DNA of 64,000 nucleotides, from contig NZ_CP036261.1 in NCBI RefSeq assembly GCF_007741475.1, positions 5,395,798-5,459,797 on the forward strand, written 5' to 3'. How positions within the stretch are numbered: position 1 is the first letter of the stretch; each line of letters begins with the position of its first letter. Origin of the DNA: Rosistilla ulvae. GTDB taxonomy: Bacteria; Planctomycetota; Planctomycetia; Pirellulales; Pirellulaceae. The position numbers were made by a program, and so were the translations under genes. Under the pieces are notes generated by a model. It did not search any database, was not told the DNA's origin, and saw only the letters and a program-made list of their open reading frames with translations. This document shows, one piece after another, positions 40,126 to 64,000 of this stretch.

Positions 40126-40167
40126 AATCGCCCCACAGGTTCTTTTTATAATGCAACGTCTGCGAGG

Positions 40168-42373: not shown

Positions 42374-42521
42374 CGGTAACAAGCCTTGGATCACAATTTA
42401 AGAACGGGAAGAAGCGGCATGCAAACACAGGGCTGAAAGGCGGAACATACCAACCTCCCAGCCCAGCATCATTCACTTGAACAACAATCCAGCGTGACGA
42501 GCGTCTCGGATTTGAGAACGA

Positions 42522-46217: not shown

Positions 46218-46589
46218 CTATTCGCCCAGATTTTGGGGCTCGGGGACCAACGCGCTGACCGAATCGGCGAACTTTTGCAAGCAATCGGCCGGTTTCTCGC
46301 CGGCTTGTAGATCCGCCTGAAGCGTCTTGGCAGCGTCGCGCAGTTCGACCAATTTACCGCCGAAGGCCTCGGCTTGAGCGTCGAGCGCTTCCATCATGAC
46401 GGACAGCTTGGCTTGAATCACATCCGACTTACGTTCCTTCTTTGCCTCATTGATGAAGGTCCAGACAAAACCTGCCGAATCTTGAAGCACTTGGTCTTCC
46501 GAAGGGGCCGGGGCCCCGCCGGTGCATCCGGCCAAAGTCGACATGAAAAGACAGACGCAAACGAAGGTTTTCGAAACAGACGCGAACAT
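46218..46589 (-). CDS. small helical lipoprotein (cassette copy 2)
   Basis: 123 residues from ATG 46589 (MFASVSKTFVCVCLFMSTLA). Lipobox in STLAGC, same linker and helical domain as the copy at 44160 (KKERKSDVIQAKLSVMMEAL), ending VPEPQNLGE. Starts 141 bases after its DUF1559 partner. An internal Cys (KPADCLQKF) replaces Ser of the other copy. Function unknown. Confidence 0.75.
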   Translation of the reverse strand: MFASVSKTFVCVCLFMSTLAGCTGGAPAPSEDQVLQDSAGFVWTFINEAKKERKSDVIQAKLSVMMEALDAQAEAFGGKLVELRDAAKTLQADLQAGEKPADCLQKFADSVSALVPEPQNLGE

Positions 46590-46730
46590 CGATGAGAGAT
46601 CCAGGATTACGATGGGGAAGAATGTCATGGGAAACGAGACGCGCGAGCAACTCGCGATCCGAAGAAGCCCAAGCGAACGCCTGGACTGTGAAATGCTGTT
46701 GGCGGCCAGCAACCGCCAACGCAAGCTTTG

Positions 46731-47720: not shown

Positions 47721-48127
47721 CTTCTGCAAAGCCTCGATACTCTCGATAAAAATTCATGGAAAACTAGGACCTTGCGGAAGTCTGCCTCGACCTAAAAAAT
47801 TTGTCAACTCACCAAAAGTGCAACTACCAGGCCTTAGGCAACCACAAAGGTCCACCACGAACCATTAATGCACACATCCACCTTTCATCGGTGGATAACA
47901 CAACTTTCTTTTTTCGGATTTTTTCCACACCATTAGGGAACACTTACCACCATCAAAGCAAAGCCGGACCGCCCTAAAAGAACCTCGCCCCAGACTGAAG
48001 AGCCAAACGCAAAACACCATTAGTGGCAACCTCCGCACGCGATAGACCGCAGATCCTTAGTTCTCTCCGAACGGACTCGTGGTACGCTAACGGCAGAGTC
48101 CACTCCGTAACTAACCGAGAATACGAT
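47721..48127. other. intergenic region
   Basis: About 400 bases, AT-richer than average, between divergent genes. A TTGACA-17-CAGACT promoter candidate lies on the minus strand at 47779-47807. No RNA gene recognised. Confidence 0.5.
47779..47807 (-). promoter_or_regulatory. candidate promoter of DUF1559 gene (copy 2)
   Basis: TTGACA, 17-base spacer, CAGACT on the minus strand, 59 bases before ATG 47720. Same spacing and xAxAxT -10 type as the element at 43526-43554. Confidence 0.3.
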
Positions 48128-48325
48128 ATGAAACCGAAAATCGTCGACCAACTCGAACGAGAGATCGAAGCCGTCTTAGCCGAGCTCTTCGACCAGCCGA
48201 GAAACTCCCCGTTGCCGATGCAGCCTTCCCCCAAAACACTGCACTTGATGGCAAAAGCGGCTGCGACGGTCTTCGAGACAGCGGTCGAAAATCGACCGCG
48301 TGATGAGGGGATACGACCCGACTGA
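48128..48325 (+). CDS. small protein of unknown function (65 residues)
   Basis: MKPKIVDQLEREIEAVLAEL begins at ATG 48128. The frame opens 35 codons earlier, but that part is not protein-like. Predicted amphipathic helix, then a Pro-rich turn (PRNSPLPMQPSPKTLH) and a second helix. No family recognised. It lies 75 bases before the sulfatase gene on the same strand and could share its transcript. Confidence 0.55.
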   Translation: MKPKIVDQLEREIEAVLAELFDQPRNSPLPMQPSPKTLHLMAKAAATVFETAVENRPRDEGIRPD

Positions 48326-48400
48326 CCACTTCCCCCACATCGCATCTCGCGGGCGACTAGAATTGTGGATCCCATCCCCCAACACCTAGCGAGTTTGTCG

Positions 48401-49810
48401 ATGTATCGATCGATTCTATTTGCCGCGATCGCCGGCTTCTGTCTGTTCCGCTGCGAGATCAGCCCCGCGGCGACGCCCAACTTTGTGATCATTTTCGCCG
48501 ACGACCAGGGTTACGGTGACCTCGGCTGCTTCGGCTCCGAAAAGATCAAAACGCCCAACATCGATCGGATGGCGAAGGAGGGGCGGCGGATGACAAACTT
48601 CATGGTCGCCTCGCCCGTCTGCACTCCGTCGCGAGCGGCGTTGCTGACCGGATGTTATCCAAAGCGCGTCGGGCTTCACGAACATGTGCTCTTTCCGCAA
48701 TCGACCAAGGGGTTGAATCCGGCCGAGCATACGATCGCCGATCACCTGAAGGGGCTCGGATATGCGACTGCATGTTTCGGCAAGTGGCACCTCGGGCATC
48801 ACCCCGAAACCTTGCCCCGCCAGCACGGGTTTGACACCTATCTTGGGATCCCCTATTCCAACGACATGAATCACCCGGACAATAAACGCAAGTCGCGAGT
48901 ATCGTCGGACGATCTGTGGCGAAATCCCAACAGTGCGGTGAAGTACTGGAACACGCCCCTTGTCGAAAACGAAACGATTGTCGAATTGCCCGTCGACCAA
49001 CGGACCGTCACGCGTCGCTACACCGATCGGGCGATCGAGTTCATTCGCGAGAACCAAAAGAAGCCCTTCTTCGTCTATCTTCCGCACAGCATGCCACACA
49101 TCCCGCTGTATGTTCCCGAGGATGCCTACGACGCCGATCCACAAAACGCCTACACCTGCGTGATCGAGCACATCGATGCCGAAGTCGGCCGATTGATCGA
49201 TACGATCCGCGCATTGGATCTGGCAGAAAATACGTACGTGATCTACACGTCGGACAACGGCCCATGGTTGCAGTTCAAAAATCATGGTGGCTCGGCCGGT
49301 CCGCTTCGCGCGGGGAAAGGGACCACGTTCGAAGGAGGGCAACGCGTTCCCTGCGTCGTCTGGGGACCAGGCCGCATTCCCGCCGGGACCGAGTGCGACG
49401 AACTGATGGGAACGATCGACCTGTTGCCATCGATCGCCGCGCTGACCAAAAGCACCCTGCCCAGCGATCGCAAGATCGACGGTATGAACCTCGCCCATCT
49501 GATGACCGGCGAATCGGGGGAAACGTCGCGCGACGAGTTCGTCTACTACACGTCCCGCGGTGCACTAGAAGGACTGCGGCAAGGGAAGTGGAAGCTGTTG
49601 GTCAAAGCTCCGCCAAAGAAGAAACCTTCGGCGAAGCTGAAGACCGATACCAACCTACCGCAGCGGATGCTGTTCGATCTGCAGGCCGATGTTGGCGAGC
49701 AGAAGAACCTAGCCGATGCCCATCCCGAACGGGTCGCGGAACTGGAAGCGAGGATGAAAGAGTTGGATGCAGAGATCACGGCCAACGCTCGCCCACCGTG
49801 GACCAAATAG
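48401..49810 (+). CDS. secreted formylglycine-dependent sulfatase
   Basis: 469 residues from ATG 48401. Signal peptide SILFAAIAGFCLFRCEISPA. Metal site FADDQGYGD (Asp34, Asp35). Sulfatase signature SPVCTPSRAALLTG with Cys74 as the residue to be converted to formylglycine; Lys128 and His130 in FGKWHLGHH; YTSDNGPW as the second metal site. Closest in style to arylsulfatase A-like (S1) enzymes, which remove sulfate from polysaccharides in marine planctomycetes. Substrate unknown; a C-terminal Lys-rich stretch (APPKKKPSAKLK) is present. Convergent with the SDR gene. Confidence 0.92.
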   Translation: MYRSILFAAIAGFCLFRCEISPAATPNFVIIFADDQGYGDLGCFGSEKIKTPNIDRMAKEGRRMTNFMVASPVCTPSRAALLTGCYPKRVGLHEHVLFPQSTKGLNPAEHTIADHLKGLGYATACFGKWHLGHHPETLPRQHGFDTYLGIPYSNDMNHPDNKRKSRVSSDDLWRNPNSAVKYWNTPLVENETIVELPVDQRTVTRRYTDRAIEFIRENQKKPFFVYLPHSMPHIPLYVPEDAYDADPQNAYTCVIEHIDAEVGRLIDTIRALDLAENTYVIYTSDNGPWLQFKNHGGSAGPLRAGKGTTFEGGQRVPCVVWGPGRIPAGTECDELMGTIDLLPSIAALTKSTLPSDRKIDGMNLAHLMTGESGETSRDEFVYYTSRGALEGLRQGKWKLLVKAPPKKKPSAKLKTDTNLPQRMLFDLQADVGEQKNLADAHPERVAELEARMKELDAEITANARPPWTK

Positions 49811-49920
49811 GATCGAGGGCTCCACGAAAGCAAAGGCGGGTACATTGCAAGCCGCTTCAAAATTGCGAATTGGCTCGGGCCCGAGTGATGCGATTCACGG
49901 GCCCCGCGCCATCGATTGGA

Positions 49921-50691
49921 TCAGTCGAGCATGCGTCCGTCGCGATAACGAAACGCCCCATCGACCGGCAAGATCGCTCCCGTGATATAGTCGGCATCGG
50001 GCGACATCAAGAAAGTGGCGGCACGGCCAATATCCCGAGCTGTCCCCAGCTTCCCCCACGGCAGCTTGGTCGCTTCCCGCTCGAAGAACTTCGGCGTGAA
50101 CGCCTCTCTTTCCCCGGGCGTATCGATCCAGCCCGGCTCGATCACGTTGACGTTAATGCGATGGCAGGCCAGCTCGACAGCGATTGTCATGGCCAATTGA
50201 TTCAAGCCCGCTTTGGCTGCGCAATAGGCGCTCTTCTGAGCCATAGGCCGCTGAGCGAGAACGCTTGAGATGAAAACAATCTTCCCCGCGATGCCTTCGT
50301 CAACCATCTGGCGTGCGACCAACTGGCTCATGTGAAAACTACTGAAAAGAGTTCCCTGAACCACGTTTTCAAAGTCCTCCGGCTGCAAGTCGAGAAACGG
50401 AGAGACCTTCTGGAAAGCGGGACAACTCACAAGTCCGTAAACCGGCCCCGACTGCTCCTCCGCTTCGCGAAGCAAGCCTTCGCAGCCAGAGCGAGTGAAG
50501 ACATCGGCTTCGACACCGTGCACGTTAGCCCCCTGGTCGCGTAGCTCTTCCACGGTTGCCTGCAAATCTTGGCTCCCGGGTCGATCATTAACGATCAGCG
50601 AAGCCCCTTGGTTGGCCAGTTCAACGGCGCACCCTTTCCCGATCCCTCTGCCCGCTGCCGTGACAATAATTGTTTTGTCTTTAAGTTTCAT
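49921..50691 (-). CDS. short-chain dehydrogenase/reductase
   Basis: 256 residues. NAD(P) motif TAAGRGIG (11-18), catalytic Ser142/143, Tyr156 and Lys160 (SAYCAAK), PGWIDTPGE. The usual NNAG structural motif is replaced by VSCPA (88-92), an oddity. Starts 32 bases after the mannonate-dehydratase-like gene, so it most likely takes part in the same pathway, for example as a fructuronate/mannonate reductase replacing UxuB. Pathway role inferred from position only. Confidence 0.85.
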   Translation of the reverse strand: MKLKDKTIIVTAAGRGIGKGCAVELANQGASLIVNDRPGSQDLQATVEELRDQGANVHGVEADVFTRSGCEGLLREAEEQSGPVYGLVSCPAFQKVSPFLDLQPEDFENVVQGTLFSSFHMSQLVARQMVDEGIAGKIVFISSVLAQRPMAQKSAYCAAKAGLNQLAMTIAVELACHRINVNVIEPGWIDTPGEREAFTPKFFEREATKLPWGKLGTARDIGRAATFLMSPDADYITGAILPVDGAFRYRDGRMLD

Positions 50692-50723
50692 GCGTTTTGC
50701 TTAGGTTCCGTGGAACGATCGCG

Positions 50724-51689
50724 TCAGCGGGCGGCGGGAAGCTCGGTCGCTTGAATTAATGCTCGGATATATCCAAAAGCAAAGTATCGGGCCAGCATCG
50801 TATATCCCGGTTGGCCTTCTTCTTCGCCGGCCAGCTGTGGCACGTGATCGGGACGTATCGGGCCGGTGAATCCGATATCGCGGTAGGCTTTCATCGCAGC
50901 CACCATATCCGTCGGGCCGTTGTCGTGGAATGTCTCGATGAAGTCGTCGGCGGTCCCTTGGACGTCTCGAAAATGAACATAACGAATCCGCTTTCCCCAT
51001 CGCCGGATGGTATCTGGAATGTCGACTCCCATTGCGGCGAAGTTGCCCTGGCAAAAGCAGATTCCATTGCTGGGCGAGGCGGAAATTTCCAACAGCCGAT
51101 CGAAGTCTTCCAGGCGATTCATGATGCGAGCATGTTTGCCAAAGGATGCCAGCGGAGGATCGTCGGGATGCATCGCCAAGGCGACGCCGGCCGCTTCGGC
51201 AGCAGGCAGCAGCTCTTCCAGAAATCGCTGAAGGTTGCTCCACAATCGGTCGGAGGAAATCGGCGAGATCGAATCGGTCTGAGAAATGGAATGCAGCGAA
51301 GCCGCCGATTCCGCATCGGAACTACGAAAGGCGGTTGTGAGCGCTCCACCCCGTTCTCGAACCTTCGTGTCGGTTCGGGCCCAATCGGTTGCGGGCATAA
51401 AGTTGTAGCAACAGATCGGTACCTCGGCTTCTCCCATGATGGCAAACAACTGCTTCATGCGGCTGAAATCATCTGCCCGATTCGCGGTGCCAAAGATGGC
51501 ATTTTGAATCGGCAGTTCTCCCTCGATCGCAGCGATCTTCAAGCCATGGCGGCTTAACCGCTCGCGGGTTTCCAGAAGACCTCGAAGCTCTAATCCCGGA
51601 TAGCGGATAGCGACAGCACTGACGCCCAACTGGGCAACGCGTGCCAGGTTCTCGTCATCAAAAGGAGTCACCACGGATGCCAACTGCAT
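50724..51689 (-). CDS. uxuA: mannonate dehydratase (UxuA family)
   Basis: 321 residues from ATG 51689 with AGAAGAG upstream; six codons more are open. TIM-barrel enzyme that dehydrates D-mannonate to 2-keto-3-deoxygluconate. Metal-site residues by motif: His174 in MHPDDPP, Cys213 in CFCQGNF, His239 in VHFRDVQG and Asp281 in RPDHVP. CCYNFMPATDWARTD and HDNGPTDM are also diagnostic. Shorter than E. coli UxuA (about 394), as in the compact family members. Middle of a leftward operon: lipoprotein, uxuA, SDR. Confidence 0.88.
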   Translation of the reverse strand: MQLASVVTPFDDENLARVAQLGVSAVAIRYPGLELRGLLETRERLSRHGLKIAAIEGELPIQNAIFGTANRADDFSRMKQLFAIMGEAEVPICCYNFMPATDWARTDTKVRERGGALTTAFRSSDAESAASLHSISQTDSISPISSDRLWSNLQRFLEELLPAAEAAGVALAMHPDDPPLASFGKHARIMNRLEDFDRLLEISASPSNGICFCQGNFAAMGVDIPDTIRRWGKRIRYVHFRDVQGTADDFIETFHDNGPTDMVAAMKAYRDIGFTGPIRPDHVPQLAGEEEGQPGYTMLARYFAFGYIRALIQATELPAAR

Positions 51690-51821
51690 ATCAAACTCTT
51701 CTAGCAAAAGGGGATCAAATCCAGCGACCGTTGGACATCGAGCGCGAACGACGTCACCGCACGCGGGACTTCTTAGATTAGATAGTCCTCGCGTCGGCGG
51801 AGGTTGCCAAAAACGGAACTC

Positions 51822-52244
51822 CTATTCCAGATCGAAATCGATCGTCTGCTTTCCTTCGCCCGATTCGACCTCCGTGCTCAAAACAGACTCCTCGTTGTAT
51901 TTTGCGGGAATCGTGATCGTTTTTGGCTGAGCGCCGCCCGAATCCAAATCGTCTTGCGAGACGCCAGCGGCCGACGGGACAGCGACGATCATTACTTTCG
52001 CCGGACCAATAACCGCGCCCCCACGGTGTGCGATTTCAAACACTCCGTTCGTAATTTGTGCCGCCGACACAGGTCCGTCACCTTCAGGGGCAAGCCGAAT
52101 TTCTCCCGATGGGACGGCTTCGCCTTGATAGGTAACCCGCCCTGTAACGACACGTCTCTCCGGCCCACTTTCGCTGGAACAGCCCCCCAAAACGAGAAGC
52201 CCCACCCCGATCAAACCCACGATGCGAAAATCAAACGATCCCAT
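51822..52244 (-). CDS. small lipoprotein, carboxypeptidase-regulatory-like fold
   Basis: 140 residues from ATG 52244 (MGSFDFRIVGLIGVGLLVLG). Lipobox LVLGGC, then RVVTGRVTYQGEAVPSGEI and the regulatory-like beta sandwich. First gene of the leftward operon with uxuA. This is the only lipoprotein of its type here whose DUF1559 partner is on the opposite strand across the regulator gene. Confidence 0.78.
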   Translation of the reverse strand: MGSFDFRIVGLIGVGLLVLGGCSSESGPERRVVTGRVTYQGEAVPSGEIRLAPEGDGPVSAAQITNGVFEIAHRGGAVIGPAKVMIVAVPSAAGVSQDDLDSGGAQPKTITIPAKYNEESVLSTEVESGEGKQTIDFDLE

Positions 52245-52357
52245 AATTCCAGAGCCAACTATTAAAAGGTTTCGAGAAGAACGAAAGAGAAAACCATGAA
52301 ATTTTCTCCAAGCCACAGCAACCAACCTTAGCAAACCCGTACTCGAAATCAATCACT

Positions 52358-52369
52358 TATTGTGCACAG
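52358..52369. promoter_or_regulatory. candidate GntR operator 1
   Basis: TATTGTGCACAG; inner TTGTGCACAG fits the FadR-subfamily consensus TNGTNNACNA with one mismatch. 114 bases before the lipoprotein start. Confidence 0.45.
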
Positions 52370-52525
52370 CACAGCTTGATTCGCGAACCAGACGCCTGGA
52401 ACCACCCCCGCACCGGCAGTCCTTCCAGCCCGGAATAGCGGCCAAGAGAGCGATGACAAGCTCCTAGATGCCCCGATCGCCAGCCCGATAAAGCACGTCG
52501 CGTGCTGCGTTCATTTTCTTGTTGA

Positions 52526-52537
52526 TATTGTACACAG
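52526..52537. promoter_or_regulatory. candidate GntR operator 2
   Basis: TATTGTACACAG, differing from site 1 only at one central position and carrying the same mismatch at the last base of the consensus. Position suggests autoregulation of the GntR gene. Confidence 0.45.
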
Positions 52538-52557
52538 ACCGTGCTACCCTGAACCAA

Positions 52558-53232
52558 ATGATCAGCGAGAAGAAACCCGAGCGACTTGTTTTGCTGAACG
52601 CGAGTGGAAAATGCTATTCCGTGTTGCGGAAGATGCTTGTCTGCGGCCAAATCCCGGCTGGCAGTCGCTTGGCGGAGGTGGAATGGTCTCAGCGGCTTGT
52701 GGCTCAACGCGCTGCGTTGCGCGAGGCGATGGTGCTGCTAACGCACGACGGGCTTTTGATTCGTCGACCGACCGGTGGCTTTTTTGTGCCGACCCCGGAA
52801 GAGGTCCACTATGATTCACTTTGGGATGCTCGAGTCGTTCTTGAACTCGGGGCACTTGATTTAGCGTTTGCTCCAGGCGCGGCACCCCGAAATTTGTCAC
52901 CCTTGAAAAAGATCTGCAGCACGATGGAAGACCTGCATCTGGCAGGGCTGACGATGGGATTTTATGAATCCGATTTCCTGTTCCATCAGACCCTTTTAGA
53001 ATTCTCGGGAAACGAGATCCTTGCGAAGATGTTTTCCCATTCCGCTCAGCATTTTTATCCGCTTGCTCCCGTCACCGGAGATATTCGCAGACAGAGGGAA
53101 GCGAGCGTAATTCGCGAGCACCGCGAAATCATCGCAAACTTAGAAGCCGGACAGATCAAAGAAGCTTCTAAACTTTTACGAGAACACATAACACGGAGCA
53201 AAGGAGTTAAAGCCTTCGCATCCGGTCGCTAG
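52558..53232 (+). CDS. GntR family regulator, FCD (FadR-like) type
   Basis: 224 residues from ATG 52558; the frame is open 13 codons earlier. Winged-helix domain with IPAGSRLAEVEWSQRLVAQR and ALREAMVLLTHDGLLIRR (core RxALREA-type). FCD domain with potential metal ligands Asp and His in ESDFLFHQTL, His in REHREII and His in LREHITR, all retained. FCD regulators of this kind respond to uronate- or organic-acid-type ligands. Sits between uxuA and the glycosidase genes and has two candidate operators upstream. Confidence 0.9.
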   Translation: MISEKKPERLVLLNASGKCYSVLRKMLVCGQIPAGSRLAEVEWSQRLVAQRAALREAMVLLTHDGLLIRRPTGGFFVPTPEEVHYDSLWDARVVLELGALDLAFAPGAAPRNLSPLKKICSTMEDLHLAGLTMGFYESDFLFHQTLLEFSGNEILAKMFSHSAQHFYPLAPVTGDIRRQREASVIREHREIIANLEAGQIKEASKLLREHITRSKGVKAFASGR

Positions 53233-53338
53233 TAGTGGCGAACATGTAAATTCCCTTTTTGATATTTCCTTCCTCCATTCACTCCCCACCTACCTCTACA
53301 GTCTTTTCCCTTTTTTGCCTTGATTTAAGGAATAGAAA

Positions 53339-54259
53339 ATGATTCAGCAGAAAAAGCGCCCCCCCCTGCGCAGTGGTTTCACACTGGTTGAACTCTTGGT
53401 CGTGATTGCGATCATCGGCATTCTGGTTGGGCTGTTGTTGCCTGCGGTACAGGCTGCACGCGAAGCGGCACGCCGCATGTCCTGTTCGGCCAATTACAAA
53501 CAAGTTGCATTGGCGATTCACAACTATCACGACACGCATCGAACCTTTCCTTTGGGGGGAGGAATCACTGGTGGTTGCAGCGGCCTTACCGGCCCTCACA
53601 TGTTCTCCTGGGGCGTCCATACGTTGCCGTTCATAGAACAGAGCGCTCGATATGACGCGATCAATTTCAACGTCGACAATTATGTTACAGGCTACGGCCC
53701 AAACCATGATCCGGACACCGCGTTGGGACCAATCCCTGTCTATCTTTGTCCCTCCAATCCGCAAAGCGATACGATGGTCAATACCGGTTTAGCCGGGGCC
53801 GTTGATGCCTTTGCCCGCACCGATATGGCCGGCGTCGCGGATTCCCGTGACTGGCGTTGCAACAGTTCGGGAACAATTGGCCTTCGCCCTCGCTCCGACG
53901 GAAACGGCATTTTCTATGGCGGGTCCTCTACCAAGTTCCGCGACATCATCGATGGCACCTCCAACACACTGCTGATCGGCGAAGTCACCGGCGACTTGAA
54001 TCCAGCGAACACCGTGAACGCCAATACTTATTCCTTATATGACGTCTTCGATACCTCCACCGGTATCAACGGGCCATTTACCTTGCCCGGCGGAGGAACT
54101 TTCAATTACCGCCCGCAAGGTTTTTCGAGCTATCACCCCGGTGGAGCCCACTTCGCGCTCGCCGACGGTAGCGTGCGATTGTTCACCGAAACGATCGATC
54201 AGACGCTTCTCTATGGTTTGACGACGCGACTCGGTGGCGAAGTCCTGCAAGAGTTCTAG
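53339..54259 (+). CDS. DUF1559 prepilin-type protein
   Basis: 306 residues from ATG 53339 with AAGGAA upstream. Leader [19 protein letters not shown], then [20 protein letters not shown] instead of the more common SNNLKQ. Body with FRDIIDGTSNTLLIGEVTGD and SYHPGGAHFALADGSV. Lies between the GntR regulator and the two carbohydrate-active-type genes on the same strand and may be co-regulated with them. Confidence 0.92.
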   Translation: MIQQKKRPPLRSGFTLVELLVVIAIIGILVGLLLPAVQAAREAARRMSCSANYKQVALAIHNYHDTHRTFPLGGGITGGCSGLTGPHMFSWGVHTLPFIEQSARYDAINFNVDNYVTGYGPNHDPDTALGPIPVYLCPSNPQSDTMVNTGLAGAVDAFARTDMAGVADSRDWRCNSSGTIGLRPRSDGNGIFYGGSSTKFRDIIDGTSNTLLIGEVTGDLNPANTVNANTYSLYDVFDTSTGINGPFTLPGGGTFNYRPQGFSSYHPGGAHFALADGSVRLFTETIDQTLLYGLTTRLGGEVLQEF

Positions 54260-54339
54260 TCCACGTCGGCAGGAATGGATGGACCAAGACCGGTCCATCG
54301 CAAATTTGCTTCCCCAAAAGTTCTTTGAGATTCGTTTTT

Positions 54340-55941
54340 ATGATCCGATGTTCGCATGTTGCTGCTACTCTTTTTGCCCTGTTGGTTGTTGCTATCAGCA
54401 TTGGTCAGGCTGACGAGCCTCTTTCCCTTGCTCAATTGAGAGCAGACAGGGAAGCGGCCACTCAGCGCGAGCGGCGGATCATCTTTAATAACGACGGAAA
54501 CGAACCGGTCTATCTCTGTCGAGATACGACACCCGACGAACTGCTCCGTCACCGCACCTCTCCGTTGGTGAACACCCACGTCGATACGATTTTCTATTGC
54601 ACGTGGAGCAGCGGCTTCGGCATGTTCACCCATGACACGAAAGTGGGGAATGTCTTTAAGACGAAAGAAGGCTTGTTCTCCAAGAACTCGATCGAAAAAA
54701 TGCTCGACGCGGGGACCGACCCGCTGCAAGTCATGGCCGATTTCGGCAAGAAGAATGACATCGAAATCTTCTGGTCGTTTCGCATGAACGACACACATGA
54801 TGCGGGCTTGTCGGGGTACGGGCCGATCATGTTGCGAGCGAATCCGTTAAAGCTCGAGCATCCCGAATGGCTGATCGGGACCCCGAAAAATCGCCCCAAG
54901 TTCGGCGGTTGGAGCGCTGTCGATTTCACGCGTCCTGAGATTCGCGATCTTGCGGTCGCGTATGTCGAAGAGGTTTGCCAAAACTACGACATCAACGGAA
55001 TCGAACTCGACTTCTTTCGACATCCTGTCTTCTTTAAACGGGCAGCTCAATCGGGAACTCCTTGCAACGACGAGGAGCGAAGCCTGATGACGGAAATGAT
55101 CCGTCGAATTAGAAAAATCACGGAAGTCGAAGGGCAAAAAAGAGGCAAGCCGATCCTGCTTTCGGTCCGTGTACCCGACTCGGTCTCCTATTGCCGTGAC
55201 TGCGGTCTCGATATCGAACAATGGCTGCAGGACGATTTGATCGACCTAATGACAGTGTCGGGATATTACCGGCTGAGCCCATGGGAGGATTCGGTCAAAC
55301 TAGGTAACAAGTACAACGTCCCGGTCTACCCGTCGTTAGATGAATCCCGCGTCCGAGATCCCGATGCGAAAAAGATGCGAATGACGGTCGAAGCCTACCG
55401 CGGGCGAGCATTGGCCGCGCGAAGCGCCGGCATGGCGGGACTCAATCTATTCAATTCGTTTGATCCCAACGCGCCGATCTGGAAAGAGCTTGGTGAGCCG
55501 GCAACACTTGCCCGGCAAGATCACGACTACTTCGCCAGTATCCGAGGCGTCGGAGCTGCGGCTGGAGGCGCTTTGCCACATCGCAGCTACCAAAAAATCG
55601 CCACGCTCAATCCGAAAGCTGCGGTTTCGGTAGCATCCAATAAACCGGCGACGGTGAGCTTCTACAACGGCGTGGAATATCAAAAGTTGGACTCCGTCGC
55701 TCCGCCCAAAATCACACTCAGCCTTCAGTTTGACAAGGAAGCTCCCAAGAACGTCGATGTCGCGCTCAATGGAAAAACGCTGAAGTCATCGCCCGCGGCG
55801 GATGGCTGGCTGGAATGCACTGTCGATCCTGGAATGCTCAAACTGAACGAAAACCAAGTGACGGTTTCACTCGGCGACAAAGACGCGGCGGCGAAGTGGA
55901 CCGACCTGCGCTGCACGGTTCGCTGGAATCAAGACAAATAA
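54340..55941 (+). CDS. secreted GH10-like (GHL10) glycosidase-fold protein
   Basis: 533 residues from ATG 54340; TTG 54325 is an alternative. Signal peptide VAATLFALLVVAISIGQA. The TIM-barrel part includes HVDTIFYCTWSSGFGMF, FWSFRMNDTHD, WSAVDFTRPEIRDLAVAYVE and YDINGIELDFFRHP (IELDFFR is the clearest family mark). A C-terminal beta domain (APKNVDVALNGKTLKSS) may bind carbohydrate. Such proteins are annotated as family 10-like glycosylhydrolases. Catalytic residues and substrate are not established. Confidence 0.75.
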   Translation: MIRCSHVAATLFALLVVAISIGQADEPLSLAQLRADREAATQRERRIIFNNDGNEPVYLCRDTTPDELLRHRTSPLVNTHVDTIFYCTWSSGFGMFTHDTKVGNVFKTKEGLFSKNSIEKMLDAGTDPLQVMADFGKKNDIEIFWSFRMNDTHDAGLSGYGPIMLRANPLKLEHPEWLIGTPKNRPKFGGWSAVDFTRPEIRDLAVAYVEEVCQNYDINGIELDFFRHPVFFKRAAQSGTPCNDEERSLMTEMIRRIRKITEVEGQKRGKPILLSVRVPDSVSYCRDCGLDIEQWLQDDLIDLMTVSGYYRLSPWEDSVKLGNKYNVPVYPSLDESRVRDPDAKKMRMTVEAYRGRALAARSAGMAGLNLFNSFDPNAPIWKELGEPATLARQDHDYFASIRGVGAAAGGALPHRSYQKIATLNPKAAVSVASNKPATVSFYNGVEYQKLDSVAPPKITLSLQFDKEAPKNVDVALNGKTLKSSPAADGWLECTVDPGMLKLNENQVTVSLGDKDAAAKWTDLRCTVRWNQDK

Positions 55942-56018
55942 TCCCAACGCCGCAAAGTTGCTTAGAAGCTTGTGAATTCGGCAATCCAACAAGAACATCA
56001 CCTAAGGTAATCCATCGC

Positions 56019-57128
56019 ATGAACCAACGAACGAACGTCGCTTTTGCAACATTGCTGGTCATTGCCGCCTCGATTTCTTCAGTCGGTGCCGCCGAAGCCA
56101 TCGAAGACATACACATTGTTCCCAAAGCAGAGAAACTACGCGGCTATCGCGGCATCAATGGCGACTTGATGCAGCGAAAAGATGGCTCCCTTTTGTTCTG
56201 CTACACCGAACCCGGTGAAGGCGGAGGCATTGTTTCCAAGACTTCGACCGATCAAGGAAGTACATGGAGCGAGCCGAAGGTTATCGTCGCTCAGCCACCC
56301 TCGTCGGGACCGGGAAGATACAACCATCCAAGCTTGCTGCAGCTGGACAATGGGGACCTTCTCATCTCCTACAACTACACCACTCACCCCGCCAAGCCGT
56401 ATTACGCGATGACCCTTTATCGTCGCAGCGCCGACCAAGGGGAAACATGGAGTGAGCAACTGCCGATGACGCCGCACGCGGGGTACACCCTGGTCCACAA
56501 CGACAAACTGCTTTCTCTCAAGGATGGCCGCGTCATCGCGGTGGCCGTTACGAAGAAGTACATGCCTAGTTCCCATGACCATAATGGCTATGTCGGTTTA
56601 ACCTTTTACTCCGACGATCAAGGATACAGCTGGCACCCTAGCGAGAACGAAGTCGACTTATACGACTCGAAAAAGATTGAGGTCCAAGAACCGGATGCCG
56701 TGGAACTAAAAGACGGCCGACTGCTGATGTTCGCTCGCACCTACAGTGGTCATCCCGTGAAAGCCTATTCCGAAGACCGAGGCGAAACTTGGTCGAAAGG
56801 CGAGCTCATCCGTGAGTTGAAAATGCCTTATGCTGGCCTGCCTACGGTCCGCCGAATTCCATCGACAGGAGACTTGCTCTTCATTTGGATCAGCGGCAAG
56901 TCCAAAAGCGAGAGCGGGCTCCCACTGCGAAGCGTGCTCTCCACAGCCATCTCTCAAGACGAAGGGGAAACCTTCGTGCACCAGCGTAACCTGGTCGACG
57001 ATCCTACCAACGATTTGGGTTATCAATGCGTTGAATTCTTGGAAGATGGAACCGCGTTAATCGTCTATCACAGCAACGATGGCTTGCATATGTCTCGCCT
57101 GAACGTCGATTGGTTCTACGGCAAGTAG
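56019..57128 (+). CDS. secreted sialidase-like (BNR repeat) protein
   Basis: 369 residues from ATG 56019; the frame opens 68 codons earlier inside the upstream gene's tail and is a shadow there. Signal peptide FATLLVIAASISSVGA. Asp-box-type turns are STDQGSTW, SADQGETW, SDDQGYSW, SEDRGETW and SQDEGETF, five in all. GDLMQRKDGSLLFCYTEPGE, GDLLISYNYTTHPAKPY and QEPDAVELKDGRLLMFAR fit exo-sialidase-like propellers. 77 bases after the GH10-like gene, likely the last gene of the rightward unit. Confidence 0.82.
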   Translation: MNQRTNVAFATLLVIAASISSVGAAEAIEDIHIVPKAEKLRGYRGINGDLMQRKDGSLLFCYTEPGEGGGIVSKTSTDQGSTWSEPKVIVAQPPSSGPGRYNHPSLLQLDNGDLLISYNYTTHPAKPYYAMTLYRRSADQGETWSEQLPMTPHAGYTLVHNDKLLSLKDGRVIAVAVTKKYMPSSHDHNGYVGLTFYSDDQGYSWHPSENEVDLYDSKKIEVQEPDAVELKDGRLLMFARTYSGHPVKAYSEDRGETWSKGELIRELKMPYAGLPTVRRIPSTGDLLFIWISGKSKSESGLPLRSVLSTAISQDEGETFVHQRNLVDDPTNDLGYQCVEFLEDGTALIVYHSNDGLHMSRLNVDWFYGK

Positions 57129-57226: not shown

Positions 57227-58705
57227 CTAAAGTTGTTGCAAGGCGACGCCGCCGGTCGCCTTGGCTAACTCGATTAGATCGTCGTTGACTTCTTCGACGA
57301 TAAACGCGTGCAGGATGATCCCGTTAAGCTCTTCTGGCTTGACGTTGATCCCGTGATCTCCATCGGTCACGATGATCAACTCGGGACGTTCGGCCTGAGT
57401 GTCGGCGACAACGGCTTCGATCCGCGTGATCCCCTCGCGAATCGCGAGGTTGATATCGGTATCATCGCCAAGAAAAAAGCTGGAGTGCAGATTTTGCATT
57501 GCGTGGCGAGCCTGAGACACTTCGTCGACAAGCACCTGTTCATGGACAACCGAATCAAAAAAGCTGAAACCGAGGATCGCTTCGCGTCGCAGCACGGCTC
57601 GCAATCGGTTCATTAAAATCGCGATCAGCTTGTAGATCCGCTCTCCCTGCTGCATCGATTTCGAACGATCCAGCATCGCGTAGAACAGTTGCTTCTTGTC
57701 GCTCTTCTTGATCTTCTCGCGGACCATAAAGCTTTTTGTCGCCACGCGGTAGCGAAAATATTTGGGCGACGCGACTTTCAGCGCCCACGCTGCCGGCACC
57801 ATCCGCGACAGTTCGTCGAACGATTGCATCATCCGCATCCGCGTCTGGTCGCCGTCGGCCGCGGGCAACATTTTCTTTTCAAAGCGAGGCTGAAAGCCGA
57901 CGTATTCGTTGGCGATCCGCGCGATCCGCACCAACGCTTCGAGCCCCGGTTCGCTGAGCATCCGCGACGCGATATCCAACCGCCGGACCGACAGCGGATG
58001 GATCTCCTTGTGCTCGGTCTCGCGACGGACGCCACCGAAACAGTCGCTCAACAGCGACGCGATCTTATCGCGTGTCTCCAGGTTTTCGACCAATTGGATC
58101 TCGCTGATCCCGCGGTCCAACGCCATCCGTTCCAGGTCGAGCGAATCGGTCGACTGCAGCGAGTCCTCGTCAGGCAGACATTCCAACAACTCGATCTCAT
58201 CGGCCGTTAGCCCGCCGACTTCACCGAGTGCCCAATTGACTTGCGCCGCGATCACGTCAGCCGCCAAACCGATCGCAAGAGCTTGCTTGACGGTCGAGAT
58301 CAGGGCGACGTTGGCGATCGCGCGATCGATGTCGGTGCGACCGGCCAGTCGATCGAATTCGATCTCCCGCAGCGCGGATGCTAACGCATGGTAGATCGCT
58401 GTGTCGCGCTGCGACCAATGAAAGATGTCGTCGAGGAAACGTTTGATCCGCCCCATTCGCATCCGATAGGTCAGCCCGATCCGCCGGTCGATCTCCAGCG
58501 ATCCCGCCAAGCGTCCGTCGTCGACTAGATGAACGCCGTCCCAGATCGTCGGGATGGGGATGTGCTGCATTCCGATCGCGTCGAGCCGCCGGATCACCTC
58601 GGCAGTGTTGATTTGTTGCCGCCGCTCGCTCTCGTCTGGGTAGGTCACATGCGTGTGGAAGCGGATGAAGTTTCGATAGCGTCGCGGCAGATCAGCGGCA
58701 TCCAT
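57227..58705 (-). CDS. CoxE-like VWA domain protein
   Basis: 492 residues from ATG 58705, with AAGGGG upstream; seven more codons are open. Helical N-terminal two-thirds (TYRMRMGRIKRFLDDIFHWS and others), then a VWA domain with MIDAS MLDRSKSMQQG, TDINLAIREG (MIDAS Thr) and IIVTDGDHGIN. No signal peptide or helix for the membrane, so cytosolic. This arrangement is that of MoxR-partner VWA proteins (CoxE/YehP-like). No MoxR gene is adjacent. 36 bases after the redox fusion gene on the same strand. Confidence 0.82.
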   Translation of the reverse strand: MDAADLPRRYRNFIRFHTHVTYPDESERRQQINTAEVIRRLDAIGMQHIPIPTIWDGVHLVDDGRLAGSLEIDRRIGLTYRMRMGRIKRFLDDIFHWSQRDTAIYHALASALREIEFDRLAGRTDIDRAIANVALISTVKQALAIGLAADVIAAQVNWALGEVGGLTADEIELLECLPDEDSLQSTDSLDLERMALDRGISEIQLVENLETRDKIASLLSDCFGGVRRETEHKEIHPLSVRRLDIASRMLSEPGLEALVRIARIANEYVGFQPRFEKKMLPAADGDQTRMRMMQSFDELSRMVPAAWALKVASPKYFRYRVATKSFMVREKIKKSDKKQLFYAMLDRSKSMQQGERIYKLIAILMNRLRAVLRREAILGFSFFDSVVHEQVLVDEVSQARHAMQNLHSSFFLGDDTDINLAIREGITRIEAVVADTQAERPELIIVTDGDHGINVKPEELNGIILHAFIVEEVNDDLIELAKATGGVALQQL

Positions 58706-58741
58706 GATCGGCCCCTTGGGCAACAAATGGGGACAAGCGAC

Positions 58742-60763
58742 TCACGAGCCAAACCGCTTCTTGGCGGCCTGTTCGATTTCCTGCCGCGTGAGGATCGAAT
58801 CGCCGTCGCGATCGAACTTACGAAATCCGTAGCGGCTGAAGGCCATCGGCGTCTCTTCGCGAGCGACCTGGCCGTCGCCATCGGTATCCATCTGTTTGAA
58901 GAAGTCGCGGACGAAATCGTTGACACGCTGCGTCGCCTCGTCGGTGACCTTATCACGCGATGCCTTCGCTTTCGACTTCTTCTTCGCGCCGCCATCCTTC
59001 TCGACATCCAACGGCTGGCAGACTTCGAAAAACGCCAATGCCATCTCCTCCCAAGTCTGATCGCCCCAACTGACATACTGCGACGGATCGGGATTGACGA
59101 GATTGTTTTTGGAATTGTCGAACCAGACGGTCCCCGCCAAATCGTCGATCGTCGACAGATCGATCGGGTTGGCAAAGGCGTAGGAGTGCTGCCAATTGAA
59201 GTCGTACGCCGGCACGTCTAACAATGTTTCCTGCTGGCCCGCGATGCGTCCCTCCAAACGGAACGCCTTGCCGCGCAGATGCATGTGCGGGGCGACGGCT
59301 AATAGCTGCCCAATTTTCGGCAACCCGCCCGGCTTGATTTCGACGGGATGATTGGCCGCTCGAGGTGGAATCTCGAACTCTTGATCGATCGCCGCCACCG
59401 TAAAGACTTCGTGAGTGACCGTCGATCGATCGGCCAGCTTGATGCCGACCTTGGTCAGATCGTCCACTTCCGAACCGTTGGGAGTGTAGTGCATCTGGAA
59501 GACAAACTTGGAACCGGCGGGGACACGACGAGCCAGGCCGGGCGGATACTCGGCGACGCGTTGGCCCGGCACGTAGGCGGTCAACCAATTGACGCCACGT
59601 TGGCGTTGGCCATCGGGGGGGCGGACAAAGATGATCGCGTGATGGACGACGCTGCGGTCGCCAGGGATCACCTCGGCCGCTTGAATCCACTGATCCTCGG
59701 TAACCCCACTGTCGACGACAAAATACTGGTACTCCACCGTTCCCTCGGCCGGCACGCGATACGGCTTGTCGTTCATCGAGAAGACAAGATCGGGAGTTCC
59801 CAGTCCCCAATCGCCTCGCGGCGGCAACGGTTCGGGAAGGTCGTTGGCATTGCCATAGGGCATCCCTTGATCGACCCAGTCTCGCAAGATCTGCTTGTCC
59901 CCCGCCGGCATCTGCCGGGCCCCTAAGAAGTCGCCATATTCGGGATTCGCGTGCCAGGGCGGCATCCGTCCCTGGTCGATCACTTCCAGCGACATGTCGG
60001 CCCAGCCGACGACTTCATCGTAATCGGTCAGGGCGAACGGTCCGATCTCGCCGGCGCGATGGCATTCGACGCAGTGCTGCTGCAGAACGCGTGAGACCTG
60101 TTTACAGAAGGTGATCGAACCCTCATCGGCTAGCGGTCGCGATTGGCCGATGATGCAACCGACCGCCGTGGTCCGTGGCATCGCCACGGGGCGATCGGCC
60201 AGCAGGTCGTCGATCGCTTCGCGCAATTCGCTGCGGGTGGCGACGGGACGGGAAATGCCCGGTCGATACTGATCGTCGATACGGCCCTGGTAGCGGATCT
60301 TGCCGGTTGCATCGAGCACAAAAACCTCGGGCGTTCGCGTCGCTCCCAACAGCGTCGCCGCGGCGCCGTCGTAGTCTTTCGCCATCGGGAACGAGATCGC
60401 ATACCGATCGACGTACTCGCGGACCTCTTGCAGCGAATCCTGGCGGTTGCTGTTGACCCCCAAGACACGCACGCCGCGATCGCGCAGTTCGGCATCCAAC
60501 GCCGACAACCGCGGCCCATACAACCGGGCTAATGGACACTCAGTCCCCAGGAAGCAGATCACATGCAACTTGCCCGCATCGGGATCTAACAAGCGAACCG
60601 ATTGGTTCTCCACCACCGAAGGCAACTGCAACGACTGGACCGATTCGGCAGCGGTGGCAGGCAGCCCACTAAAACAGCAAGCCACGATGAAGACAAACAA
60701 TCGCCAAAAATCTGCCCCGCGATTGTTTCGAAAGGCCTCGTGCGTCAGATCTCGAATGTTCAT
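58742..60763 (-). CDS. redoxin / cytochrome c / copper monooxygenase-like / EF-hand fusion protein
   Basis: 673 residues. Signal segment at about 20-39 (RLFVFIVACCFSGLPATAAE). Thioredoxin-fold redoxin domain 45-195 with a lone Cys76 in GTECPLARLYG (no CXXC). Heme motif CVECH (231-235) followed by GPFALTDYDEVVGWA and MPPWHA, as in planctomycete cytochromes. A PHM-like copper domain follows, with HH at 374-375 (VVHHAIIF), His425 (HYTPNG), His493 and His495 (PHMHLRG). Two EF-hand loops lie at 626-637 and 651-662. Likely exported. Thought to combine redox and copper chemistry, but the substrate is unknown. A Lys/Ala-rich linker precedes the EF hands. Confidence 0.85.
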   Translation of the reverse strand: MNIRDLTHEAFRNNRGADFWRLFVFIVACCFSGLPATAAESVQSLQLPSVVENQSVRLLDPDAGKLHVICFLGTECPLARLYGPRLSALDAELRDRGVRVLGVNSNRQDSLQEVREYVDRYAISFPMAKDYDGAAATLLGATRTPEVFVLDATGKIRYQGRIDDQYRPGISRPVATRSELREAIDDLLADRPVAMPRTTAVGCIIGQSRPLADEGSITFCKQVSRVLQQHCVECHRAGEIGPFALTDYDEVVGWADMSLEVIDQGRMPPWHANPEYGDFLGARQMPAGDKQILRDWVDQGMPYGNANDLPEPLPPRGDWGLGTPDLVFSMNDKPYRVPAEGTVEYQYFVVDSGVTEDQWIQAAEVIPGDRSVVHHAIIFVRPPDGQRQRGVNWLTAYVPGQRVAEYPPGLARRVPAGSKFVFQMHYTPNGSEVDDLTKVGIKLADRSTVTHEVFTVAAIDQEFEIPPRAANHPVEIKPGGLPKIGQLLAVAPHMHLRGKAFRLEGRIAGQQETLLDVPAYDFNWQHSYAFANPIDLSTIDDLAGTVWFDNSKNNLVNPDPSQYVSWGDQTWEEMALAFFEVCQPLDVEKDGGAKKKSKAKASRDKVTDEATQRVNDFVRDFFKQMDTDGDGQVAREETPMAFSRYGFRKFDRDGDSILTRQEIEQAAKKRFGS

Positions 60764-60891
60764 GGCTGCCCAATGGACTGATGGTGAAGAGTGCGGATCA
60801 AGCGAGCCTGTTCAACAGGTTTTAATCGTTCACAAACGAGTCGGCGATCAACCGCCCCACGTGCTGCAACCCACGTACAGACGCAAGACGA

Positions 60892-61320
60892 TCAAAGGGC
60901 CGCGTCACCGGAATGGGAGAACCCGGCAGCCCATTGCGAAATCTCGGCCGCGGAATGAAACCCCATCCGTTCGTCGATCTTCTTGCCGTCGCGAAACATG
61001 ATCATATGCGGGATGCCCGAAACTCGGTAACGCGCACTCAGTTCGGGATTGTTGTCGACGTTGATCGATACGATCTCGACTTCGCCGGTGACATTCGGCA
61101 ATTCGTCGTCGAGCATCCGGCACGGACCGCACCACGGGGCGCCGAACTTAATCAAGGTGAGCGGCGACTGTGCAACCAATTCGTCGAACTGCTGTTCGCT
61201 GTAGTGAGGGTCATCGCTGGCCGAACCATCTCCCACGCGAAAGCGATCGCAACCGACGACGATCAAAGTAACCAGCGTGATCCATCCCAAAGCGATTCGG
61301 GTCGAGGCGAGCATATTCAT
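60892..61320 (-). CDS. thioredoxin-like lipoprotein
   Basis: 142 residues. Lipobox at VVGC24, then a short linker and a thioredoxin fold with WCGPC (63-67), cis-Pro104 in SGIPHMIMF and a normal strand order. Predicted to be membrane-anchored on the periplasmic side, where it would reduce disulfides or donate electrons. It lies 128 bases before the redox fusion gene on the same strand, so a functional link with that protein is plausible. Confidence 0.88.
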   Translation of the reverse strand: MNMLASTRIALGWITLVTLIVVGCDRFRVGDGSASDDPHYSEQQFDELVAQSPLTLIKFGAPWCGPCRMLDDELPNVTGEVEIVSINVDNNPELSARYRVSGIPHMIMFRDGKKIDERMGFHSAAEISQWAAGFSHSGDAAL

Positions 61321-61621
61321 TTTCCAATCAAGCTATATTGATTTATTATCTAATCGAATCCCAGAATCTTATATACCAGATCCGACGGCAAACCGCCGGT
61401 TGGCGATTCGTCTTCAAACACACGATTTCGATCGGTGGCGAAACGGATGGTGGGAATTACTCTGCGATTAACATTGCGGAGCAGGTCAGGCGCCGACGCG
61501 TTAGTTCCTGGAGGGGGGGGGCCATCTGGCACCTTCCTACCATCACTTTGTCCAGTGACAGCTTTTGCTGCCACTTTCAAACTCCCCCATTCCCGCCATC
61601 CATTCTAAGACACTGCCGTCC
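61321..61621. other. divergent promoter region thioredoxin / LuxR gene
   Basis: 301 bases, AT-rich at 61320-61380 with a run of nine G near 61513. Neither a clear promoter nor an RNA gene could be fixed by eye. Confidence 0.45.
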
Positions 61622-62281
61622 ATGGGCAACAACCTTGAAAACTTTGAACAGACCGTTCAACGCATCTCCGATACGGTTCTCGACTGCATTCGACAGCGGC
61701 AGCCTCCGCTGGCCTCGATTGCAGATGAACCCGACAGCATTTTCGTAAAGGCGGCCAACGGACACACGCAAATTGTCAACAGCGCCTATCACCTTCGGTT
61801 TACAGCGGGGGCGGATCCCGCGGGGAAACCGGGGGCTTCTTATTTGCATTCGTCGATTGTCGACGTCTCACAACGCAGCGACAAGATGATCCTGGGCGGT
61901 TGTTCGACGGTGCAATTCAATCATGTGGGAGAAGATCCCCTGGGAAGAACGCTCCATTTCCGCACTTACAAACGTTCCCTACAAGAAGCGGGCGACCCGC
62001 GTTATGCAATTCTGGGCATCTCGCGAATGATGGGCATCATCGCATCGAACGCCCCGACGACACTGCTTTCCGAAAAATGGCGGCGTTTCGAGCAGTTGAG
62101 CCCCACGGACCGCCAGATTGCGATCGTGATCGCTGGTGCCAACATTGAAGGCGTCTCGAGCGACGCCATCGAACGCCGGCGCAACGCGATCCTGCAAACC
62201 CTGGAGGTTGAATCACAGGTCGAACTGATCAAGCTGTTGGTGCGATTGCAGGATAACGGCTTTGGCAACCTAGGAATCTGA
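61622..62281 (+). CDS. LuxR-type regulator with sensor-like N-terminus
   Basis: 219 residues from ATG 61622; the frame is open 19 codons before. C-terminal helix-turn-helix of LuxR type (LSPTDRQIAIVIAGA, SSDAIERRRNAILQTLEV, VELIKLLVRLQDNG), with Asn instead of the usual Gly/Lys features in the recognition helix. The N-terminal 130 residues include YHLRFTAGADPAGK and FNHVGEDPLGRTLHFRTY, possibly a PAS-like sensor. Ends 10 bases before pstB on the other strand. Target genes unknown. Confidence 0.7.
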   Translation: MGNNLENFEQTVQRISDTVLDCIRQRQPPLASIADEPDSIFVKAANGHTQIVNSAYHLRFTAGADPAGKPGASYLHSSIVDVSQRSDKMILGGCSTVQFNHVGEDPLGRTLHFRTYKRSLQEAGDPRYAILGISRMMGIIASNAPTTLLSEKWRRFEQLSPTDRQIAIVIAGANIEGVSSDAIERRRNAILQTLEVESQVELIKLLVRLQDNGFGNLGI

Positions 62282-62291
62282 CGTCGCTGTG

Positions 62292-63137
62292 TTAACTGAA
62301 TTCGCCGCGAATGTACTGCTTGGTGTACTCTTCCTGCGGATCGGCGAACATCGCTTCGGTCTTGCTGTATTCGACCAGATAGCCGGTTCGCGCACCTTGC
62401 GAGGTGTCGACATACATGAACGCCGTCATGTCAGCGACGCGTTGAGCTTGTTGCAGATTGTGAGTGACCACCGCGATCGTGTACTGCTTCTTCAGTTCGG
62501 TCATCAGTTCTTCGATCCGTCGCGTGGCGATCGGATCCAACGCCGAACAAGGTTCATCCATCAACAGCACCTCGGGTTCGGTAGCGATCGCCCGAGCGAT
62601 ACAGAGCCGTTGCTGTTGTCCGCCGGACAACGACAATCCGCTGTTCTTCAGCTTGTCCTTCACCTCATCCCAAAGCGCCGCGCCACGCAGCGCCTTCTCG
62701 ACGCGCTCGGGCACATCCCCTTTAACACGGTTCAGGCGCAGGCCAAACGCAACGTTATTATAGATGCTCATCGCAAACGGATTGGGCTGTTGAAAGACCA
62801 TCCCGATGTAGCGACGGACCGCCACGGGATCGACGCTGCGATGGTAGATGTCGCGGCCGCGAAAATGAACATGCCCTTCGAAGCGGAAGCCGCGGACCAG
62901 ATCGTTCATCCGGTTCAGACATCGCAGCGCGGTGCTCTTACCGCAGCCCGAAGGCCCGATGAAGGCGGTGATCTGCCCCTGCTGGACCGGGATGTGGCTA
63001 TCGCGAACAGCTCGAAACTTGCCGTAATAAAGGTTGTCGATCTTGCAATCGATAACGATATTGGAGGCCGTACCATTGCTGCTGCCGTTGGCGGCCTTTC
63101 CGGCTTTCGATTGGACCGTCGATGATGCTTGAATCAT
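62292..63137 (-). CDS. pstB: phosphate ABC transporter ATP-binding protein
   Basis: 281 residues, slightly long because of a Ser/Gly-rich N-terminal extension of about 25 residues. Walker [10 protein letters not shown] (61-69), [10 protein letters not shown]-loop, signature LSGGQ (170-174), Walker B LLMDE (191-195) and VVTHNL H-loop. PstB drives high-affinity phosphate import with PstA and PstC. 14 bases after the pstA gene, so the two are co-transcribed. Confidence 0.97.
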
Positions 63138-63151
63138 ATGGAAATACCTGC

Positions 63152-64000
63152 TCAGCTTGTGACTTTATTGCGCGATAGGATTTGCCCACCGATGTTGATC
63201 ACTAACACGATCATCACCAGCACGAGAGCGGCTGCCCAAGCGAGTTCAATTTGATTCTCGAAAGGAACGCCAGAGAAATTGAAGATCAGCACCGCCAGAG
63301 AAGCCGTCGGATCCATCAACGCCAACTCGCCATCTTGTACGATCCAGTAGTTGCTGTTGAGCGCCGTGAACAACAGCGGAGCGGTTTCGCCAGCGGCACG
63401 CGCCACGGCCAACATCACTCCAGTTAACAGCCCCGGCAGTGCCGTGGGCAGAATCACTTTCCAAACGACTTGTGTTTGCGTCGCACCCATCCCGATCGCC
63501 GCTTCTTTCATGCGGTGCGGGACCATCTTGATCGCCTCTTCCGCAGTCAACATCACGATCGGCAGCATTAGAATCGAAAGGGCGATGCCGCCAGCCGGAG
63601 CCGAATAGGTCCCCGTGACCAAGACGACGGCCGCATAGGCGAACACGCCAGCCAAAATCGACGGGAATCCGGTCAACAACTTGGCACAGAACCGGACCGC
63701 CGACGCCGTCTTGCTGCCGCTGCCAAATTCCGCCAGGAACAGAGCGGCCAAAACGCCAAAGGGAACACTGATCAAGATCGCGATCCCAACCATCAACAGC
63801 GTCCCCACGATCGCGTTGCCAAACCCACCTCCGCTTTCAAAAGCCGATGGAGGTGTTTCGGTCAGCAAGCTCAGACTCAACCGCTTCCCACCGCGCCAGA
63901 TCAGCATGAACAGCACAGAGAACAAAGGGATGCAAGCGACAACCGTCACAACCCCAGTCAGGATGCTGAGTGCTGAACTGAAAAATGTGCGTGGGTGACG
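63152..64000 (-). CDS. pstA: phosphate ABC transporter permease PstA, N-terminus outside window
   Basis: The frame stays open to base 64000 (upstream codons read [20 protein letters not shown]), so the start lies beyond the edge; GTG at 63949 is only an internal possibility. At least 282 residues are visible. Six hydrophobic segments, with [20 protein letters not shown] and [20 protein letters not shown] (the EAA loop that contacts the ATPase). It ends with [16 protein letters not shown]. Partner of PstB; pstC and pstS are expected outside the window. Confidence 0.95.

Follow-up and report, generated by a model that had tools for sequence, protein, structure and literature searches.

The locus considered here raises the question of what a single polypeptide that carries a redoxin domain, a c-type heme site, a copper core and a pair of EF hands does, and with which other protein it works. 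It lies near one end of the window, by which we mean the whole 64,000-nucleotide stretch of DNA that was analysed (C1:5395798-5459797 of a 7.48 Mb single-contig genome), and its features are collected in Table 1. The initial annotation had joined this enzyme to a thioredoxin lipoprotein encoded immediately upstream, proposing an extracytoplasmic electron route from thioredoxin to redoxin to heme to copper. What was observed then is real and was in part read correctly, and the interpretation finds partial support: the conserved partner of the enzyme is an MMPL/RND transporter, not the thioredoxin, and this close pairing is a more useful finding than the fusion itself. We posit, with a probability of roughly 0.5, that the enzyme is an exported copper oxygenase with the PHM/DBH fold and a built-in heme donor, and that it forms a two-protein unit with the transporter, its substrate or product being hydrophobic.

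Table 1. Features of the locus, in window coordinates
Feature	Position	Strand	Description
vWA-domain protein	57227..58726	(-)	499 aa; starts 15 bases downstream of the enzyme
Four-part enzyme gene	58742..60763	(-)	673 aa; hydrophobic N-terminal segment, redoxin, cytochrome c, PHM/DBH core, EF-hand pair
EF-hand pair	58754..58936	(-)	aa 610-670; Pfam EF hands in two stretches
PHM/DBH-type two-domain copper core	59000..59812	(-)	aa 318-588; H374, H375, H425 (CuH); H493, H495, M574 (CuM)
Cytochrome c domain	59852..60109	(-)	about aa 219-304; CVECH at aa 231-235 (60059-60073), Met267
Redoxin (thioredoxin-fold) domain	60137..60652	(-)	aa 38-209; conserved Cys76 and Cys203
Gap between thioredoxin and enzyme	60764..60891	(-)	128 bases
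Thioredoxin lipoprotein (WCGPC)	60892..61320	(-)	142 aa; neighbour in the window's genus; system membership doubtful

Structurally, the four-part architecture in one chain that had been read from the sequence is borne out by Pfam, by an AF2 model built from 58 sequences (pLDDT 90.1, pTM 0.85) and by residue conservation, and an ORF check confirmed both reading frames and the gap between them. Pfam detects AhpC-TSA/Redoxin and EF hands on the enzyme, matches cytochrome CBB3 weakly and leaves Cu2_monoox_C under its threshold, and the N-terminus carries a hydrophobic stretch that would serve as a signal peptide or anchor, which supports the earlier view of a protein that is probably exported. Scanning GTDB genomes turned up 452 relatives, from which 80 loci were kept; because these match the enzyme over most of its length at 45-55% identity, chance is excluded. 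The 80 loci come from planctomycete records (including Stieleria, Rhodopirellula, Neorhodopirellula, Thalassoglobus and Roseimaritima) and from a handful of MAGs that carry no label beyond 'bacterium', and the peptide patterns used to collect them contain CxxCH and the ligand stretches, a choice that favours those motifs, although sequences from a whole-protein search agree with them on the motifs. For residue counts, each set of identical proteins counted as one sequence (132 references gave 127 sequences, 128 with the window), sequences with an internal stop were dropped (at least L095, L100, L101 and L134), and 20 regions from the phylum-wide search were chosen by hand for spread; of the resulting 128 sequences, 96 belong to the window's clade and 32 lie outside it. 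Rather than being lost in most homologues, the His and CxxCH ligands are kept throughout: ten ligand columns (C231, C234, H235, M267, H374, H375, H425, H493, H495 and M574) are invariant in 128/128 sequences. Three residues had been overlooked in the initial annotation, namely Met574, Met267 and the conserved Cys203.

The wider enzyme family is found in 153 of 392 genomes of the phylum at E<=1e-30, with up to several copies per genome among the matches listed. The window's own genome encodes a second four-part protein (C1:6015173-6016978; L123:6174-8282) that is 48% identical and has EF-hand-like motifs, with no such MMPL/RND transporter within the 14 kb around it. Elsewhere, redoxin-heme-copper enzymes stand in tandem on one strand, with three in L129:85-5432, and two in L128:3211-6808 together with a third match that contains an in-frame stop.

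The likeness to PHM, part of the earlier reading, is now supported by predicted fold and by ligand alignment. The copper core of the model aligns with PHM entries at VIA Z 17.1-21.4 over 228-251 residues and thus spans the complete two-domain fold; the best PHM entry reaches Z 21.4 (251 residues, 2.8 A), a DBH entry reaches Z 20.6, and Foldseek ranks 1-12 are all PHM. Further, a profile built from 41 PHM-like parts retrieves human DBH (E 8.4e-7), and in the profile alignment the HH, H, HxH and M of DBH fall on H374/H375, H425, H493/H495 and M574, the DBH copper ligands being listed in PMC4846438 as His262, His263, His333, His412, His414 and Met487. The five histidines named in the initial annotation are therefore present as described, but the set was incomplete, since it left out Met574, the CuM methionine, which aligns to the DBH methionine and is kept in 128/128 sequences. 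By Pfam, the window protein scores 12.8 bits against Cu2_monoox_C (PF03712), below the cut-off of 23, while its own-genome paralogue passes with 33.1 bits and 32 of the 41 members give a match at E<=0.01; among the Pfam hits of the window protein there is none to the N-terminal Cu2 monooxygenase family. We call the core 'PHM/DBH-like' because the assignment rests on fold and ligands, with the PF03712 cut-off not reached, and the fusion appears to be a novel variation on the PHM/DBH type.

The heme site is likewise supported. CVECH is present as first read, CxxCH occurs in all 128 sequences, and so does Met267 (within GRMPPW), which is probably the second (axial, distal) heme ligand. Pfam Cytochrome_CBB3 and Haem_bd match 41/41 members at E<=0.1, CBB3 remaining under its cut-off for the window protein. 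Modelled alone (pLDDT 80.6), the heme part aligns with the monoheme cytochrome PccH at a modest Z of 7.0 (1.8 A, 74 residues), and its sequence profile gives weak matches only to solved structures, the best being hydrazine synthase at E 0.0027. Prerequisites of the proposed mechanism are in place: besides the hydrophobic N-terminal stretch of the enzyme, genes for cytochrome c assembly and a DsbD_TM gene (a DsbD-type membrane reductase) are found in the window genome.

The redoxin domain, in turn, departs from its first description as a one-cysteine domain. Cys76 is kept in 126/128 sequences and Cys203 in 124/128, and the latter, together with counterparts in solved relatives, refutes the single-cysteine reading. 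Pfam AhpC-TSA/Redoxin covers aa 45-158 (6e-15), and the domain of the model aligns with 2cvb, 2ywo, 3u5r and 2ywi at VIA Z 21-22 (22 for 2cvb and 3u5r), compared with Z of about 15 for PrxQ and ResA-like folds. The thioredoxin CxxC is absent from this domain, its site being LGTEC, where Cys76 alone is present. The peroxiredoxin motif is PxxxT/SxxC; in the enzyme, Gly73 occupies the motif position three residues before Cys76. At the C-terminus, the two EF hands that had been claimed are recovered by Pfam in two stretches, and at least two EF-loop-like motifs are found in the tails of 95/96 sequences of the clade versus 12/32 outside it, where 18/32 lack any EF-loop motif.

Genomically, the partner of this enzyme emerges from its neighbourhoods. 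Neighbour clustering places an MMPL/RND protein downstream of the enzyme on the same strand at 58 of the 80 loci (about 750-830 aa where complete, with two MMPL stretches), against 8/80 for the next most frequent clusters. The transporter was not found at the other 22 of the 80 loci, where a contig end lies within 300 bases in four and not in most of the others. In the window genome it is encoded at C1:3700108-3702345, outside the window, where the initial annotation could not have noticed it, and unlinked to the enzyme; the window's genus keeps both proteins, apart. Across the phylum sample, the subtype enzyme and the transporter (each at E<1e-200) are found in an identical set of 21 genomes out of 392 and lie side by side in 19 of them. 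In the family sample of 119 genomes there are at least 48 adjacent pairs in 46 genomes, as tallied from the stronger matches, and 40 of the 42 genomes with an enzyme match of at least 640 bits also have a transporter match of at least 640 bits; in the remaining two (G424 and G437) a partial-length transporter match lies next to the enzyme. Among the 77 family genomes without such an enzyme, 11 have the transporter, and in these it stands beside a lower-scoring enzyme in nine and is accompanied by a lower-scoring enzyme elsewhere in two, among the matches listed. All eight family genomes in which an enzyme of at least 640 bits is non-adjacent (five single-contig genomes and three multi-contig drafts) have the transporter elsewhere in the genome, again among the matches listed. 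Fisher values for the co-occurrence are 3e-35 and 4e-19, figures that ignore relatedness and that rest on bit and E-value thresholds set after the scores were seen.

Evolutionarily, a quick tree (LG+G4) of the 128 enzymes places the transporter-linked sequences within a clade of 96 (SH-aLRT 99), made up of 72 linked sequences, 18 unlinked sequences (the window's two congeners among them), five with too little sequence and the window itself. As this clade was defined as the common ancestor of all linked sequences, the absence of linked sequences outside it is by construction, and the information lies in its size, its support and the clustering of the label, which changes 16 times on the tree compared with a shuffled mean of 41.9. 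The window enzyme and the window transporter have different nearest sequences in the full trees, and enzyme and transporter distances correlate poorly when taken from the window (r 0.22, against 0.81 over all pairs of 48 sequences). In constrained tests, placing the transporter with the enzyme's Rhodopirellula group gave p-AU 0.55 and the alternative group gave p-AU 0.14 and 0.10, the enzyme's own support for the Rhodopirellula group being only 26. Since neither grouping is rejected, the data are compatible both with a pair that was split in the window's genus and with the replacement of one member.

As for what the transporter carries, it scores higher with the HAE3 and HpnN models than with those of metal or multidrug pumps, and among solved structures its closest relatives in sequence are 5khn, an RND transporter, and HpnN 6wu0, which makes a hydrophobic or amphiphilic cargo likely. 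Its scores, 141 and 165.8 bits against a cut-off of 351.9 for HAE3 (TIGR00921) and 72.8 and 97.6 bits against 751.85 for HpnN (TIGR03480), reach neither cut-off and fall so far under both that the class of cargo can only be guessed from superfamily membership.

These results bear on a reading in which the protein is no oxygenase, but an envelope stress or copper-handling protein whose redoxin would reduce peroxides, whose heme would give electrons, whose core would oxidise or hold copper, and whose RND partner would export a toxic compound. The resemblance of the redoxin to PrxQ and ResA-like folds noted above, the drug pumps among the relatives of the RND partner and the occurrence of up to several copies per genome, among the matches listed, all fit such a role, yet the six catalytic copper ligands, including the CuM methionine, are invariant in 128/128 sequences, as expected of a working PHM/DBH site, and the preference of the transporter for the HAE3 and HpnN models over metal or multidrug pump models points elsewhere. 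We consider this reading unlikely.

More doubtful still is the route first proposed, in which the thioredoxin lipoprotein would reduce the redoxin, which would pass electrons to heme and then to copper, the neighbouring genes making up one extracytoplasmic chain. The neighbour is indeed a thioredoxin (Pfam 8e-20) in which WCGPC and, by eye, a VVGC lipobox can be read, its orthologue lies directly upstream of the enzyme in 3/3 genomes of the genus sampled among the 119 family genomes (identity 80, 87 and 100%), and the genome encodes a DsbD-type membrane reductase. A simple consensus scan of the gap found neither a promoter-like nor a terminator-like site, the lack of the latter being in keeping with the route, and the gap is poorly conserved. 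Against this, tblastn (E<1e-3, flanks of up to 6 kb, with more than 600 bases upstream at 73 of the 80) found the thioredoxin at 0/80 other loci, whereas the same query, as a control, did recover the window, its two congeners and a 41% relative. Scanning for a WCxxC-type motif up to 3 kb from each of the 80 enzymes gave matches at six loci, none thioredoxin-like by eye. Moreover, the best relatives outside the genus (41%) adjoin other genes, the enzyme keeps its ligands at loci without the thioredoxin, and the feeding of a heme by a dithiol would be chemically awkward. As a conserved partner the thioredoxin was rejected, and as a general component of the system it is not supported; as far as sampled it characterises one genus, where it is a local neighbour of the enzyme and not a defining part. 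Its place in the weakly supported electron route aside, it was possibly recruited locally, and it is possible that it acts as a genus-level add-on that reduces Cys76/Cys203.

The other neighbours in the window can be described briefly. The vWA-like protein, whose VWA_2 match is below the cut-off and in which no signal peptide was seen by eye, ends the same-strand run and lies 15 bases past the enzyme stop in 3/3 sampled genomes of the genus; it is probably a positional neighbour of the enzyme only, perhaps sharing a transcript with it without sharing a function. Upstream of the thioredoxin and on the same strand, 61565-64000 holds genes that by eye resemble pstB and pstA (phosphate uptake), separated from the thioredoxin by an opposite-strand gene (61565-62281), a layout found in 3/3 sampled genomes of the genus. 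Elsewhere in the window, alignments show that the stretch at about 51727-56542, which holds a DUF1559-like pseudopilin-type protein and a GHL10-like protein, is, along with most of a BNR/sialidase-like gene, present in one congener (G459) and absent from the same place in the other (G397), and five proteins encoded within 38746-54259 (ORFs at 38746, 42522, 44824, 46731 and 53339) have a common start sequence.

That the pair modifies and moves hopanoids is highly improbable, and hopanoids were set aside as the substrate in the window's genus, because, for all that the transporter's nearest solved structures are 5khn and HpnN 6wu0 and that it scores 73-98 bits with the HpnN model (cut-off not reached), none of the three genomes sampled from the genus gave a hopene cyclase match at E<=1e-60 and only 7 of the 24 cyclase-matched family genomes have the transporter.

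Functionally, the oxygenase reading can be set out as a sequence of steps. The c-type heme domain would take electrons from the periplasmic pool and pass them to CuH, the fused heme acting as electron donor in place of ascorbate, while CuM would bind O2 and oxygenate the substrate. The redoxin, through Cys76/Cys203, would most likely clear peroxide leaked by the copper centre or run a thiol/disulfide couple, and the EF hands would most likely bind Ca2+ that stabilises the exported protein. The transporter, as a member of the HAE3/HpnN-like group, would move a hydrophobic or amphiphilic substrate or product, the direction of transport being as presumptive as the class of substrate, and the unit would persist in the window's genus through two genes that stand apart and are both retained. 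More broadly, and more tentatively, the enzyme may represent a self-sufficient, ascorbate-free PHM/DBH-like branch in Planctomycetes, in which heme replaces ascorbate and which, paired 1:1 with an RND transporter, would oxygenate a hydrophobic compound during its periplasmic transit. Neither such a fusion nor such an enzyme-transporter pair is named in the titles or abstract openings among the literature matches listed, a coverage that leaves out most of the subscription literature. With the heme domain in the same chain, the enzyme would allow a direct test of how PHM/DBH-type enzymes could obtain two electrons without ascorbate, and of what bacterial members of this type do. Its pairing with one RND subfamily offers a handle on the substrate and, conversely, a lead on function for a group of transporters which our profile libraries assign to its superfamily and no further.

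The closest known systems can be compared with the unit part by part. The redoxin domain shares its fold, and counterparts of both Cys76 and Cys203, with 2ywi (Geobacillus), 2cvb (Thermus thermophilus) and 3u5r (Sinorhizobium), but those are chains of 188-218 residues without the enzyme's other parts; the structure listing describes 2cvb as 'thiol-disulfide isomerase/thioredoxin' and states no function for 2ywi or 3u5r. PccH and cbb3-type cytochrome c domains have CxxCH in common with the heme domain, as well as the small, helical layout of a cytochrome c, but here the domain sits within the oxygenase chain, the Z of the match to PccH being modest. The partner transporter belongs with HpnN and HAE3-type RND/MMPL transporters to one superfamily and has two MMPL stretches, but it scores far below both cut-offs and is tied to the oxygenase clade. 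PHM and DBH have the same two-domain copper core, with three histidines at CuH and two histidines and one methionine at CuM, whereas in the enzyme this core, 14-19% identical to theirs in structural alignments, is part of a fusion in which a redoxin and a c-type heme domain precede it and EF hands follow. At the positions 491, 576 and 578, which we assume, from a by-eye alignment to the PHM sequence, to be equivalent to the peptide-binding residues of PHM (Arg240, Asn316 and Tyr318), the commonest states in the clade are A/T/S, V/I/L and F in place of Arg, Asn and Tyr.
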